Both the position numbers and the translations under genes were made by a program. Source: Bacteroidales bacterium (lineage in GTDB: Bacteria > Bacteroidota > Bacteroidia > Bacteroidales > F082). Taken from it: a stretch of 9,067 bases of DNA. Where the stretch lies: NCBI GenBank assembly GCA_016281295.1, contig JAEEII010000154.1, positions 1-9,067 of the forward strand, in the 5' to 3' direction. The stretch's first letter is position 1. The number at the start of each line of letters is the position of its first letter. Under the pieces are notes generated by a model. That model worked only from the letters and a program-made list of their open reading frames with translations, was not told the DNA's origin and searched no databases. Positions 3,094 through 9,067 of this stretch are shown one piece after another.

Positions 3094-6000
3094 ATGGATT
3101 ATAACTTTACCGAGATTGAGAAAAAATGGCAGCAGTATTGGCGCGACCAGAAAGTATATAAGGTTGATATAGACCACAATAAGCCCAAATTTTATGTGTT
3201 GGACATGTTCCCCTATCCTTCAGGGGCGGGACTTCATGTGGGGCATCCTTTGGGCTATATCGCCTCGGATATTTACAGTCGTTACAAACGTCTGAAAGGC
3301 TTCAACGTGCTTCATCCCATGGGCTACGACGCCTACGGACTGCCTGCTGAGCAGTATGCCATCCAAACAGGCACGCATCCAGCGGTGACCACCGAGAAGA
3401 ACATCAACCGTTATCGTGAGCAGATGGACAAGATCGGGTTCAGCTACGACTGGGATCGTGAGGTGCGCACTTGTGAACCAAGCTACTACAAGTGGACGCA
3501 ATGGACTTTCCTCCAGTTGTTTAACTCGTATTACTGCAACGGCTGCCAGAAGGCTCAGCCCATCAGCAAGCTGATTGCCCGTTTCGAGGAAAAAGGAACA
3601 GAAGGTCTCAACGTGGCTGAGAGCAAGCCACTGAGCTTCACCGCCACCGAGTGGAAGTCCATGAGCGAGAAGGAGCAACAGGAAGTGCTGATGAACTATC
3701 GCCTTGCCTTCCAAGCCGAAGCGATGGTGAACTGGTGTCCTGAACTTGGTACCGTACTTGCCAATGATGAGGTGGTGGATGGTCTCTCTGTACGTGGTGG
3801 CTATCCCGTGGTGCGCAAGTCGATGAAACAATGGCTGCTCCGCATCACCGCTTACGCTGAGCGTCTGCTTACCGGTCTTGAAACCGTGGAATGGAGCGAA
3901 TCCGTAAAAGAAGTGCAGCGCAACTGGATCGGCAAATCCATGGGTGCTTCTGTGATTTTCAAAGTTGAAGGGAAAAATATTGACTTAGAGGTATTTACCA
4001 CAAGAGCTGATACTTTGTTCGGCACTACTTTCATGGTGTTGGCTCCAGAACACGAGTTGGTTTCGGAAATCACCACCGAGGCGCAACGCACCGAGGTGGA
4101 GGAATACATCACCCGCACCAAGAACCGCAGCGAACGCGAGCGCATGGCCGAGGTCCGCAAGGTGAGTGGTGCCTTCACGGGTGCATACGGCATCAACCCC
4201 ATCACTGGAGCCAAGCTCCCCATTTGGATCGCCGACTATGTGCTCATGGGCTATGGCACGGGCGCCATCATGGCAGTGTCTGCCCACGACAGCCGCGACT
4301 TTGCCTTCGCCAAGCACTTCAACTTACCCATTATCCAAGTGGTGAAAAAACCTGGCACTGAAGCCACTGACCCTTCCACATGGGACGAAAGCTTTGATGC
4401 CAAAGACGGCGAGCTGGTCAACTCAGGCTTCCTCAATGGTCTCCCTGTAAAGAAAGCCATCGAGCGCATGATTCAGGAACTAGAAAAGTTAGGGGTCGGA
4501 ACAGGAAAGACCAACTACCGTCTTCGCGACGCCATCTTTAGCCGCCAACGCTACTGGGGCGAGCCTTTCCCGATTTACTACAAGGATGGCATGCCTTACG
4601 CCATGGACGAGTCGAAGCTTCCATTGGAGCTGCCTTCCATCGACGAATACAAGCCCACTGAGACAGGAGAGCCGCCTTTGGCACGCGCCAAGAACTGGGT
4701 CACCGAAGATGGTTATCCCATCGAGACCAACACCATGCCCGGCTTTGCCGGATCGAGCGGTTATTACTTCCGCTATCAGGATCCGCACAACGACAAGGAA
4801 TATTTCAGCCGCGAGGCCAACGACTATTGGCAGAACGTAGATCTGTATATCGGCGGCGCCGAACACGCCACCGGCCACCTCATCTACAGCCGCTTCTGGT
4901 GCAAGTTCTTGTATGACATCGGATTAGCGTGCAAGGACGAGCCTTTCCAAAGGATGATCAACCAAGGCATGATCCAAGGCCGTTCCAGCTTCGCCTATCG
5001 TGTCAACTTGGAGAAGCTATGCGAATATGACGTCTGGAACATCATCAAGGACAAGCGTTTGGGCGTGGAATTCGTAAGAGATTACAAGGACGGTCGTCGT
5101 CGATTCGACTTCTTCTGCCCCGAAAAAGGCATCCTCATCGAGATTAACCGTATGGGCAACCTCGAAAAGGTAGCCGAGCCTTGGGAAGAATACGCGGCAT
5201 CGAAAGGCTACAAACTGCTTTTGGTGCCTAACATCGACGTTTTGAATGATTACAGGTCTGGAACCCATATCGTTGAACAGAAAATCAAAGACTTGATTGC
5301 TGGGAAGGAAGTCCCGACCTTTGTTGACGGCGAAGAGTACAAGTGTGGCCCCATCTTCGTATCCAAAAACATCCCTGACCGTGAGCAGTTCAGCGACCCG
5401 ATTCATGTGGATATCAACATGGTACACAACGACATCCTTGACATACCGGCTTGCCGCCAATGGCGCGACGACCTCCACAACGCCCACTTCATCAAGGAGA
5501 AGGACAAGGATGGCAACGACATCTATGTGTGCGGTTCCGAAGTCGAGAAGATGTCAAAGTCGATGTATAACGTGCAGAACCCCGATGACATCGTGGAGAA
5601 ATACGGCGCCGACACGCTCCGTCTCTACGAGATGTTCCTCGGCCCGTTGGAGCAGTCCAAGCCCTGGGACACCCAAGGCATCGAAGGCACCTTCCGCTTC
5701 CTACGCAAGTTCTGGAAACTCTACACCGACGAGAATAACGAGTTCCACGTCAGCGACGAGCCTGCCACCGCAGCTGAACTGAAATGTCTGCACAAGCTCA
5801 TCAAGAAAGAGGAAGACGGCATTGAGAGCATCTCGTTCAACACCGTCGTCTCTGCCTTCATGATCGGCGTCAACGAGCTCACCGACCTCAAGTGCAACAA
5901 GCGTGAGATCCTTGAGCCGCTTTGCGTGATGATTTCACCTTACGCTCCGCACATCGCCGAAGAGCTCTGGCACTTGTTAGGCCATGATGACTCCGTAGTG

Positions 6001-6234
6001 AAAGCCACCTTCCCCGTTTACGACGAGAGCAAGACCGTGGAAAACAGCTTCAACTATCCCGTCAGCTTCAACGGCAAGATGCGCTTCAACATGGAGCTGC
6101 CCGTCACGATGACCGCCGACGAGGTTCAAGCCGCCGTGCTCGCCGCCCCCGAAGCCGCCAAGTGGATTGAAGGCAAGCAAGTGCGCAAGGTCATTTACGT
6201 GCCGAAGAAGATTGTCAATATCGTGGTGGGATAG
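3094..6234 (+). CDS. leuS: Leucyl-tRNA synthetase with an extra inserted domain
   Basis: Class I aminoacyl-tRNA synthetase that activates leucine with ATP and charges tRNA-Leu in the cytoplasm. The HIGH motif is HVGH at residues 48-51 after FPYPSGAGL, and KMSKS is at 819-823. The CP1 editing domain is present: the threonine-rich TTRADT motif begins at T302, and [13 protein letters not shown] carries the conserved editing aspartate at D399. The anticodon-binding region ([21 protein letters not shown]) and the C-terminal domain follow, ending KKIVNIVVG. Start chosen at ATG 3094 ([16 protein letters not shown]); an in-frame TTG at 3061 overlaps the putative promoter and adds residues unlike the family. 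At 1046 residues it exceeds both the usual bacterial length (~860) and the ~940 I recall for Bacteroidetes enzymes, which have their own insertions near residues ~145-210 and before KMSKS. The remaining excess is the DUF559-like segment listed separately. All essential motifs are intact, so the enzyme is expected to be functional. Confidence 0.97.
5005..5343 (+). other. DUF559/Vsr-like nuclease-fold domain inserted in frame within LeuRS
   Basis: LeuRS residues ~638-750 interrupt a stretch that, in Bacteroides LeuRS as I remember it, runs directly from GRSxFxYR to the segment before PLHVDVN. Here GRSSFAYRV and [13 protein letters not shown] flank about 112 extra residues. The insert follows the DUF559 (COG2852) layout: a [19 protein letters not shown] start, [17 protein letters not shown] in the core, and [15 protein letters not shown] near the end. 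In DUF559 proteins the core reads like DFYCPE..L.IE.DG..H. Here D672 and E683 are kept, but the DG..H part has become N685-RMGN, so nuclease activity is doubtful. Base composition matches the rest of leuS, which suggests an old, domesticated insertion. The frame is uninterrupted, with no intein-like splice residues (no Cys/Ser start with a terminal His-Asn). The family call is by eye. Confidence 0.7.
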
Positions 6235-6386: not shown

Positions 6387-6965
6387 TCAATCCCATTTAG
6401 TTGGCCCAAGCACTTTGCCTGTTCCATTGCAAGTTCGGCATTTTCCCGTTTTACTGCAATTTGAGCATTCTACTCTTCCCGTACCGTATGGATTGTTGTA
6501 CCAGCCTTTACCGCCACAAGTGCTACAAACACCGCTTCCGTGGCAAATATGGCAATCTTTATAATCGGCATGTGGCTTTTTGACTTGGTGAGTACTGTTG
6601 TTGCTATTTGATGATGAACCACTTGTTGATGTTGTAGTTTGAGGTACTATTATCGGAGCAGTTGTTGGAGCAGGCATATTGGAAATGGCGTTCATATTGT
6701 TCTGCATCACCTGGTTCATCTGTTGATTGAAATTGGCCGTGCCTTGAATCTGTGTCTGAATCGACTGTTGTTGGTAAGACGGGATTGTCGTCCCCCCATA
6801 ACTTGGTGTATACATACCAGGCGCATAGCCGTAATTATAACTGCCATATCCTGCCATTCCCGCAGCCATACCTTCAGCCATACCAAGCATAAATTCACAA
6901 GAGGTTAGAAACATCGTGGAGACAACAAGTACAGTCATCATCCAAATTTTGAGTATTCTTTTCAT
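6387..6965 (-). CDS. Lipoprotein with a C-terminal DnaJ-like zinc-binding module
   Basis: A 192-residue protein. The N-terminus is a lipoprotein signal, with a basic start, a hydrophobic core and the lipobox LTSC placing the lipidated cysteine at C23. After it come a Gly/Met/Tyr-rich stretch (~25-58), a Gln/Asn-rich stretch (~63-92) and a Ser/Thr/Asn linker (~100-126), all of low complexity and probably disordered. The C-terminus holds four CxxC pairs, C138/C141, C147/C150, C167/C170 and C176/C179, within repeats CHICHGSG, CSTCGGKG, CSNCSKTG and CRTCNGTG. This is the CxxCxGxG pattern of the DnaJ cysteine-rich domain, which binds two zinc ions; no J domain is present. The protein probably sits on the periplasmic face or the surface of a membrane. 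Its role is unknown; binding of unfolded peptide is only a guess from DnaJ. It starts 31 bases after the preceding minus-strand gene and is probably in the same operon. Confidence 0.82.
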   Translation of the reverse strand: MKRILKIWMMTVLVVSTMFLTSCEFMLGMAEGMAAGMAGYGSYNYGYAPGMYTPSYGGTTIPSYQQQSIQTQIQGTANFNQQMNQVMQNNMNAISNMPAPTTAPIIVPQTTTSTSGSSSNSNNSTHQVKKPHADYKDCHICHGSGVCSTCGGKGWYNNPYGTGRVECSNCSKTGKCRTCNGTGKVLGPTKWD

Positions 6966-7749: not shown

Positions 7750-9067
7750 TTATTGGTAATCTTTGACGAGACGGACGGACAAACCGTGAAATCGATTATG
7801 TGTATGCTGTATTTCAACATAGAAATTAGAAACAAAACATATACTATATGCTGCATCAAGATAGGTCGTTGATCTCCTAAAAGACGAAGACCAATATAAT
7901 CCTTCTTCATTATACACATGACTTGCGCCATGACGAACTCCTGCGGCAGGCAAAAAAACAGCACCATGAGATTCCAAACGTTCCCTCCATTCTTTAACAG
8001 GAATCACGTTACTATCAAAGGAAACGACATTGTTATTAGCATTATTCAATACACAATAAGAGCTAATCCAATCATCAGGCAAAATAATTAGACCATTAAT
8101 GCCATTCACTTGAGCAGTTACATACCGTAAGCCCGAATTAGTAATTCTATCATTGAGTATATAGCTCCATTCTAAATATGTTAACGTGCGCCATCCCATA
8201 TTCTCTTGATTACCTCCATTGCTAATTGCATTGTAACCCCAATCAGCCTTTCCTGTTTTGTCATATAGATTACATGTCTCAATACCATAAGCTCTACAAT
8301 CATGGCCTTCAGGTTTAGACCAAGGGTGATAACAAACCGCCCCATGATTATAATTACTAGAACCCCAAAAGAAAAGATCCCTATCAATATACCGAGAATC
8401 ATCGGATTGTCCTTCGCCCAAAAACTCCCATTGGTTGTCCGCAAACTTCCAATAAGGCGTTGCAGCACTTCCAATGAATTGCAGATTCCCCTGTGAAAAG
8501 TGCACTTTCTTCGTGGCACTTACAGAGAAAACGCCTGGTAACACACCATCTGGCCAAGAAACGGAGGATGTTGTAGTAAACAACACTTCATTGCCATAAC
8601 TTGTTCCAACACTATTGGTGGCATAGGCTTTGACATGATAAGTCGTGTTTGCGGTCAAACCAGTAATGGATAGCCAAAACTCTCCTGTTCCTCCTCCACT
8701 GCTCATGTGGTTGTCATTAATGGTAGGATTGGATGAAACGCTCCAACAGAGCCCCCGTTCGGTTACTGTTGCACCGCCATCGTTCGTTACATTTCCTCCT
8801 CCTTGCACTGAGTTTGAGGTAACAACATCCACATACAATGTATAAACACTTGGTAACGTTGGCATTGTACCACCGCCTCCACCACCACCTCCGCCATCAG
8901 AAAGCGTAGTGAAATACTTATCTTCACCATAATAATACTCCAAACCACGCAAGGCAAAAGCCCGAACATGGTATGTCGTATTAGGGGAAAGCCCTGAAAC
9001 AGTTCTGATGAAAGGCTCATTCCAAGCCTCTGATGACAATTGGCTGTCGTTGGCAGTTGGATTGGGT
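7750..9067 (-). CDS. Surface protein with fibronectin-like repeats and a FISUMP/C-type-lectin-like C-terminal domain (5' end outside window)
   Basis: The frame is open through the right edge, so the N-terminus is missing; 438 residues are visible (visible residue 1 at 9064-9066), ending at TAA 7750-7752. A TTG at 9039 is internal, since the repeat sequence continues upstream of it. Visible residues ~1-55 are the end of one fibronectin-III-like unit (NPTANDSQLSS, then LSPNTTYHVRAFA, then YFTT). A run of nine glycines follows at 58-66, then a complete similar unit at ~67-165 (NPTINDNHMSS, LTANTTYHVKAYATNSVGTSYGNEVLFTT). From ~169 the C-terminal domain begins (KKVHFSQGNLQF, WRTLTYLEW, GLIILPDDW, GAVFLPAAG, YWSSS, SVRLVKD), a pattern I know from Bacteroidetes and Fibrobacter surface proteins (FISUMP-like, probably C-type-lectin fold). 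It is probably exported and may bind glycan or protein; the ligand is unknown. No T9SS sorting domain is at the C-terminus. Confidence 0.85.
   Translation of the reverse strand, partial: PNPTANDSQLSSEAWNEPFIRTVSGLSPNTTYHVRAFALRGLEYYYGEDKYFTTLSDGGGGGGGGGTMPTLPSVYTLYVDVVTSNSVQGGGNVTNDGGATVTERGLCWSVSSNPTINDNHMSSGGGTGEFWLSITGLTANTTYHVKAYATNSVGTSYGNEVLFTTTSSVSWPDGVLPGVFSVSATKKVHFSQGNLQFIGSAATPYWKFADNQWEFLGEGQSDDSRYIDRDLFFWGSSNYNHGAVCYHPWSKPEGHDCRAYGIETCNLYDKTGKADWGYNAISNGGNQENMGWRTLTYLEWSYILNDRITNSGLRYVTAQVNGINGLIILPDDWISSYCVLNNANNNVVSFDSNVIPVKEWRERLESHGAVFLPAAGVRHGASHVYNEEGLYWSSSFRRSTTYLDAAYSICFVSNFYVEIQHTHNRFHGLSVRLVKDYQ
8869..8895 (-). repeat. Trinucleotide run coding a nine-glycine linker
   Basis: Nine consecutive GGN codons (GGC, GGA, GGT mixed) lie between the two fibronectin-like units. 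The run is 27 bases with an embedded pure (GGT)3 run at 8881-8889. It probably acts as a flexible spacer. Because the codons are mixed, slippage should be limited; any length change by threes would only alter the linker. Confidence 0.85.

Follow-up and report, generated by a model that had tools for sequence, protein, structure and literature searches.

The window analysed here, the whole 9,067-nucleotide stretch of contig JAEEII010000154.1 from a Bacteroidales bacterium, carries leuS on the forward strand (3094..6234), which encodes a leucyl-tRNA synthetase (LeuRS) of 1046 residues recognised by TIGR00396 (944.6 bits) and by the Pfam editing and anticodon domains. LeuRS is an essential enzyme that charges tRNA with leucine, and the hosts that carry the form described here are gut Bacteroidales. 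Inside this protein, a DUF559/Vsr-like domain (codons ~638-754, 5005..~5355, forward strand) replaces the loop of a hairpin. The strand preceding it (codons 629-637, E629-637; 4978..5004) and the strand following it (codons 754-756, 5353..5361), both on the forward strand, are taken from a whole-LeuRS AlphaFold2 model built from 32 rows, with a predicted template modelling score (pTM) of 0.56; the second strand bears an FVS motif common to insert-less LeuRS. By alignment, the insertion falls where the leucine-specific domain (LSD) begins, ahead of KMSKS.

The extra domain had been noticed in a sequence-only reading, and a LeuRS alignment confirms it and sets its edges at ~117 residues, codons ~638-754 (5005 to ~5355). 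The alignment draws on the best 80 loci among the matches listed; after removal of 11 fragments, 69 proteins longer than 900 residues remain. The insert lies between YRV(637) and the F-V-S strand in 31 of the 69 and is missing in 29, one of which (L055) has 20 other extra residues nearby; four hold partial remnants and five an unrelated extra sequence at the same LSD site. Insert-less proteins have about five residues at this position, for example YRIKGTNTFVSYN. The proposed in-frame insertion, in a loop of this essential enzyme that tolerates extra sequence, is supported. Excerpts of PMC5059758 describe AgnB2 and H. pylori LeuRS as having no LSD. As a separate observation, three Chryseobacterium LeuRS (L043, L044, L045) carry long, mutually different, non-DUF559 sequences at the LSD site, which seems hypervariable.

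One account would take the segment for ordinary LeuRS sequence, or for an assembly artefact, that resembles DUF559 by chance; it can point to the score of the window insert alone against Pfam DUF559 (PF04480), 20.0 bits, just below the gathering cut-off of 20.6. An artefact is rejected given 86 proteins matching the insert region, one cluster of which has 1041 members, and the insert in 31 of 69 LeuRS with absence in relatives. Nor is the segment common to all Bacteroidota, the case that could have overturned the first reading. Counting rows below E=1e-19, all of which lie beside the LeuRS I/VNQG motif, the order to which L001's genome belongs (Bacteroidales) has the insert in 30 of the 393 genomes searched, one copy being cut by a contig end, and the phylum, at the same strength, in 1 of 395, the reference genome itself. 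With the fold and profile matches also against it, this account is already refuted and its residual probability is minute.

The profile and structure matches of the insert to DUF559/PD-(D/E)XK are strong and bear out the DUF559/Vsr-like identity first read from the letters. The insert is predicted to adopt the PD-(D/E)XK fold of DUF559 type, and likewise the catalytic-domain fold of EDxHD homing endonucleases, and structure prediction folds it into a compact unit joined to the LSD. This model consists of the catalytic fold without a neighbouring DNA-recognition module. In Pfam at E ≤ 1, DUF559 is the sole family listed for the insert, which leaves it outside the RAP family; no match is found for the single insert by phmmer against the PDB at E ≤ 1, for the insert alone in NCBIfam, or for the insert in PADLOC at E ≤ 1, and on this last result an anti-phage system is rejected. 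For the complete LeuRS, Pfam at E ≤ 1 gives six families, none of them intein or Hint, so an intein is rejected as well; the insert shows no sign of splicing.

The active site retains part of the free-form DUF559 motif, E...D...ExDGxxH. In the DUF559 profile alignment, the helix-1 acidic residue E644 (5023..5025, forward strand) aligns with the Glu of 'E..LW' and D672 (5107..5109, forward strand) with the Asp of 'VDF', while conservation counts mark E683-I-N685 (5140..5148, forward strand) as E-x-K/N in place of the DUF559 E-x-D. The earlier observation that D672 and E683 are present and the DG..H part is gone therefore stands: E644, D672 and E683 are kept, with D replaced by N, G by R and H by N. 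Of the 31 rows outside the window clade, all have E644 and W648, 30 have D672 and 30 have E683; the 27 rows of the clade itself have all four residues without exception. Position 685 is K in 27, R in 2 and S in 2 of the 31 rows outside the clade, and N in 21 and K in 6 of the 27 inside. Among 53 distinct inserts, drawn from 90 proteins found plus the window, position 683 is E in 48 and D in 5, and position 685 is N in 38 and K in 15; the insert tree requires a minimum of 8 changes at residue 685 and the LeuRS-body tree 10.

Selection on the insert was assessed from nonsynonymous to synonymous substitution ratios (dN/dS, Nei-Gojobori) in 196 pairs with body identity >88%, of which 145 are computable; the values are approximate, as the pairs are non-independent and dS approaches saturation. 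The median is 0.092 for the insert and 0.044 for the body, and in the 99 pairs with insert identity >75% it is 0.077 and 0.044; mean dS in the same pairs is higher in the insert (1.29-1.46) than in the body (0.86-0.93). By these ratios the insert is under purifying selection. A neutral passenger, without function and constrained only because misfolding would harm an essential enzyme, would suit an insert dN/dS about twice that of the body, the unrelated extra sequences at the same LSD site in 5/69 LeuRS, and the genomes of the genus in which the domain is missing or reduced (11 of the 53 where LeuRS is matched), all of which keep LeuRS open over 936-980 residues. Folding alone does not predict that, of 116 insert positions, the active-site-like polar residues E644, D672 and E683 should rank with the most conserved, and a useless 117-residue domain would have had to persist across many lineages; we consider such a passenger possible and somewhat doubtful. 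The proposal that the domain lost catalysis, surviving perhaps as a passenger, receives no clear support: residues resembling metal ligands rank with the most conserved of the domain, purifying selection acts on the insert, and D...ExK stands in most rows outside the window clade.

In the genus of L001's genome, 40 of 60 genomes hold the full domain and one more holds a copy cut by a contig end; LeuRS is found in 53 of the 60, comprising these 41 with the insert, one split across contigs here and 11 without the core. Those 11, which supply the open LeuRS frames of 936-980 residues, fall into three footprints of 8, 2 and 1 genomes. Two footprints and L071 retain residues that, by eye, resemble the first helix of the insert (EKMA, EKY) or its end (KEVPF-like), and because of these residues deletion rather than gain is suggested as the origin of the remnants. 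The single-genome footprint (L215) is a bare short loop that could be the older state. L038, L039 and L042 match these footprints as well and could come from genomes already counted among the 11.

On the LeuRS-body tree (101 rows, a quick LG+G4 tree with long-branch warnings, on which gains and losses are indistinguishable), insert presence needs 17 changes, at least 12 of them forced by well-supported branches. The domain tree (116 columns, midpoint root, near-duplicates dropped) splits 42 LSD inserts from 44 embedded or free DUF559 domains by a branch with a Shimodaira-Hasegawa-like approximate likelihood ratio support of 96; the LSD inserts thus form one clade in this tree, which fits a single origin as sister to the other DUF559 forms. 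Identity of the insert follows that of the body (r=0.86 over 1653 pairs), and the insert is more alike than the body in 7 of 1446 pairs with body identity <85%, which gives little support to long-distance horizontal transfer as the main cause of the patchiness. Local exchange is clear in the sequence of L012, the sole row given a formal recombination test: over residues ~495-859 around the insert it is window-like at 36/46 informative sites, compared with 25/145 elsewhere (0/100 shuffles). Recombination is suggested in L016 and L035, where sliding identity to close relatives falls over residues ~600-800, and L035 holds a normal insert-less LSD within this stretch. The LSD segment can thus be exchanged between related species.

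The same observations bear on a selfish homing-type nuclease, in which E...D...ExK forms would cut insert-less leuS and be copied in by repair, unspliced and in frame, the ExN of the window having recently weakened. The patchy presence with its forced changes, the replaced segment around the insert in L012, the insert dS above that of the body, K at position 685 in 27/31 rows outside the window clade, and related DUF559 domains in frame in LeuRS, ValRS and IleRS all speak for it, and it is retained because D...ExK is kept in most of those outside rows. The close tracking of insert and body identity, with its 7 exceptions, makes long-distance transfer look rare; the tree cannot separate gains from losses, the model has no DNA-recognition module beside the catalytic fold, and N stands at 685 in 21/27 window-clade rows. 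Of self-copying by sequence-specific cleavage, the apparent signs are the patchiness and one recombination tract, and we regard homing as unlikely.

DUF559 domains also lie in frame in other Bacteroidales genes, first seen as long open reading frames (ORFs) with another kind of match to the insert-profile probe, their hosts then being identified with Pfam and NCBIfam. Intact-motif domains are found at the start of the LeuRS editing domain (L124, L125, L126, L138, L139), inside ValRS (L129, L131) and inside IleRS (L249, L250, L252, L253; TIGR00392 972-1011 bits). In L130, L137, L248, L255, L256 and L257 the LeuRS editing-domain position is assigned from flanking sequence only, and the LeuRS of L110, L116 and L117 have two DUF559-type domains, one in the LSD and one in the editing-domain hairpin. 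Further hosts are type ISP (L132, L136, L140, L142), HsdR (L128, L259), HsdM (L134), Eco57I-type (L135) and N6/N4 methylase (L127, L133) proteins, and genes for sugar biosynthesis, namely UDP-sugar reductase-like ones that score below the curated cut-off of the best NCBIfam model (L251, L254) and a DegT aminotransferase family gene (L258). A Pfam DUF559 search of the 393 order genomes gives 122 with a match at E ≤ 1e-20 and does not detect the LSD insert of G001; of the 150 matches listed, 32 fall within open frames of 300 residues or longer. The earlier statement that DUF559 proteins are normally free-standing is therefore too narrow, and with LeuRS, ValRS, IleRS and restriction-modification enzymes among the hosts in this order, fusion is not confined to this synthetase. 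Among 25 genomes in the genus of G319, the LeuRS editing-domain insertion is present in 6 and LeuRS is without it in 16, with one cut before the site and two without a LeuRS match; at 13 empty sites the sequence is GAEMKFKVKDSDIDFEIFTTRADT or a close variant of it.

The ends of many DUF559 insertions are G/C-rich inverted palindromes, and several of the in-frame, stop-free domains in the LeuRS editing domain, ValRS and IleRS lie between such repeats. Tested against 60 codon-shuffled controls per sequence, a palindrome exceeds all 60 in 21/30 embedded domains, 8/14 free genes and 2/62 LSD inserts, leaving 9/30 embedded domains that do not; embedded here means an ORF >300 residues, six of the 30 represent one LeuRS site in one genus, and L141, counted by ORF length, looks like a C-terminal fusion. 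The window insert shares the in-frame, stop-free placement in a host ORF and has no palindromic ends by this test. A 31-base right-end pattern, matched with 3 mismatches at most, has one hit in G319 and one in G031, both beside the inserted DUF559, and none in G001; a high-copy palindrome repeat is rejected on this one end sequence. We take these DUF559 insertions to be probable mobile nuclease elements that entered host genes in frame and persist there as tolerated loops. A broader and rather speculative proposal, which we would bet against, is a class of splicing-free selfish DUF559 homing elements, often palindrome-bounded, sitting in loops of LeuRS, ValRS and IleRS, translated within the enzyme and spreading by cutting insert-less alleles, with the window LSD domain as its oldest member, either domesticated or still homing.

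Our preferred interpretation, evenly poised between right and wrong, is that the LSD domain is a once-mobile nuclease fold captured in frame and now a selected, dispensable LeuRS module. An ancestor of some Bacteroidales would have gained a DUF559/Vsr-like domain in frame in the LSD hairpin loop, probably once. The free-form motif E...D...ExDGxxH may then have been reshaped into E...D...ExK, with E...D...ExN arising in the window lineage; the LSD insert lacks the palindromic ends of many DUF559 insertions. The domain would now be a domesticated accessory module, most likely a nucleic-acid-contacting or metal-binding surface, perhaps touching tRNA, and not a cutter. It is kept by selection and yet presumably dispensable: in-frame deletion has probably removed it from some lineages, and recombination swaps the LSD segment between related species. 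Several points weigh against this interpretation. In the midpoint-rooted tree the LSD inserts branch beside the remaining DUF559 domains and not from within them, which leaves their descent from a palindrome-bounded element a supposition; the conserved E, D and E would be expected of a working nuclease too; and the repeated changes at 685 would argue against both strict catalytic constraint and one fixed new function. The window insert has an isoelectric point of 5.28 and the net charge over 58 inserts has a median of -2 (range -7 to +4), so RNA binding through positive charge is unsupported and generic RNA binding seems disfavoured. The whole-LeuRS model is weak, so no domain-tRNA geometry is claimed.

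Elsewhere in the window, a protein with a fibronectin III match just below cut-off and a glycine-rich stretch lies at 7753-9039 on the reverse strand. At 6390-6965 on the same strand lies a small protein in which a CxxC..G motif recurs, by eye reminiscent of a DnaJ zinc finger, with no match beyond a weak one to DUF7895. An ORF ending at 1562 (forward) and a histidine kinase ORF ending at 1512 (reverse) overlap tail to tail by ~50 bases (1512-1562).

In this locus an essential translation enzyme carries what is probably a captured nuclease fold under selection. Sister species, with their remnant, insert-less or swapped alleles, offer a direct way to test its role. The wider set of in-frame, often palindrome-bounded DUF559 domains in LeuRS, ValRS and IleRS suggests that mobile nucleases could give rise to new domains of essential proteins with neither introns nor inteins involved. 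In the open-licence papers searched, no report of the insert or of DUF559 inside a synthetase appears; the architecture is already visible in databases, as a precomputed PF04480 label stands on 7 of the 86 matching LeuRS records.

Compared with Pfam DUF559 and NGO0050 (PDB 3hrl), the insert differs in lying inside LeuRS, in scoring under the gathering cut-off and in having N-R..N (K in most relatives) for D-G..H. With inteins it shares an in-frame, nuclease-bearing insertion in an essential gene. Inteins need Cys, Ser or Thr at the segment ends, whereas the LeuRS segment starts V-N-L, is followed by F-V-S, and has neither such residues at its ends nor a Hint domain. Unlike EDxHD homing endonucleases (I-Bth0305I, PDB 3r3p) and Vsr, it has no extra DNA-binding module, lies outside an intron, is not a free-standing gene and is missing the motif H. 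Excerpts of PMC3943268 give PD-(D/E)xK and EDxHD homing enzymes a metal-dependent mechanism, and we read the insert family as probably of the ExK type. In FASTKD4, a Vsr-like fold with an altered active site binds RNA; the His of Vsr is Asn there, and mutation of the candidate catalytic Asp left MT-ND3 stability unaltered, according to excerpts of PMC11879112. FASTKD4 is the nearest functional precedent, from which the insert differs in having no Pfam RAP match, in being bacterial and within a synthetase, and in not being basic. Rickettsia palindromic elements, ~150 bp long and encoding a conserved peptide in the excerpted text of PMC10969869, resemble the other DUF559 insertions, many of which have palindromic ends and which lie stop-free and in frame in coding genes; the DUF559 insertions differ in carrying a nuclease-type domain, and the window insert in having no palindromes. 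The ShiLan-type homing insertion in a phage methylase is likewise inside a host ORF, endonuclease-associated and with no splicing domain found, with its HNH endonuclease out of frame with the host (excerpts of PMC11855218), whereas in LeuRS the nuclease fold itself is the in-frame insert. The Rickettsia palindromic elements (PMC10969869) and the ShiLan homing insertion (PMC11855218) are the closest described kinds.
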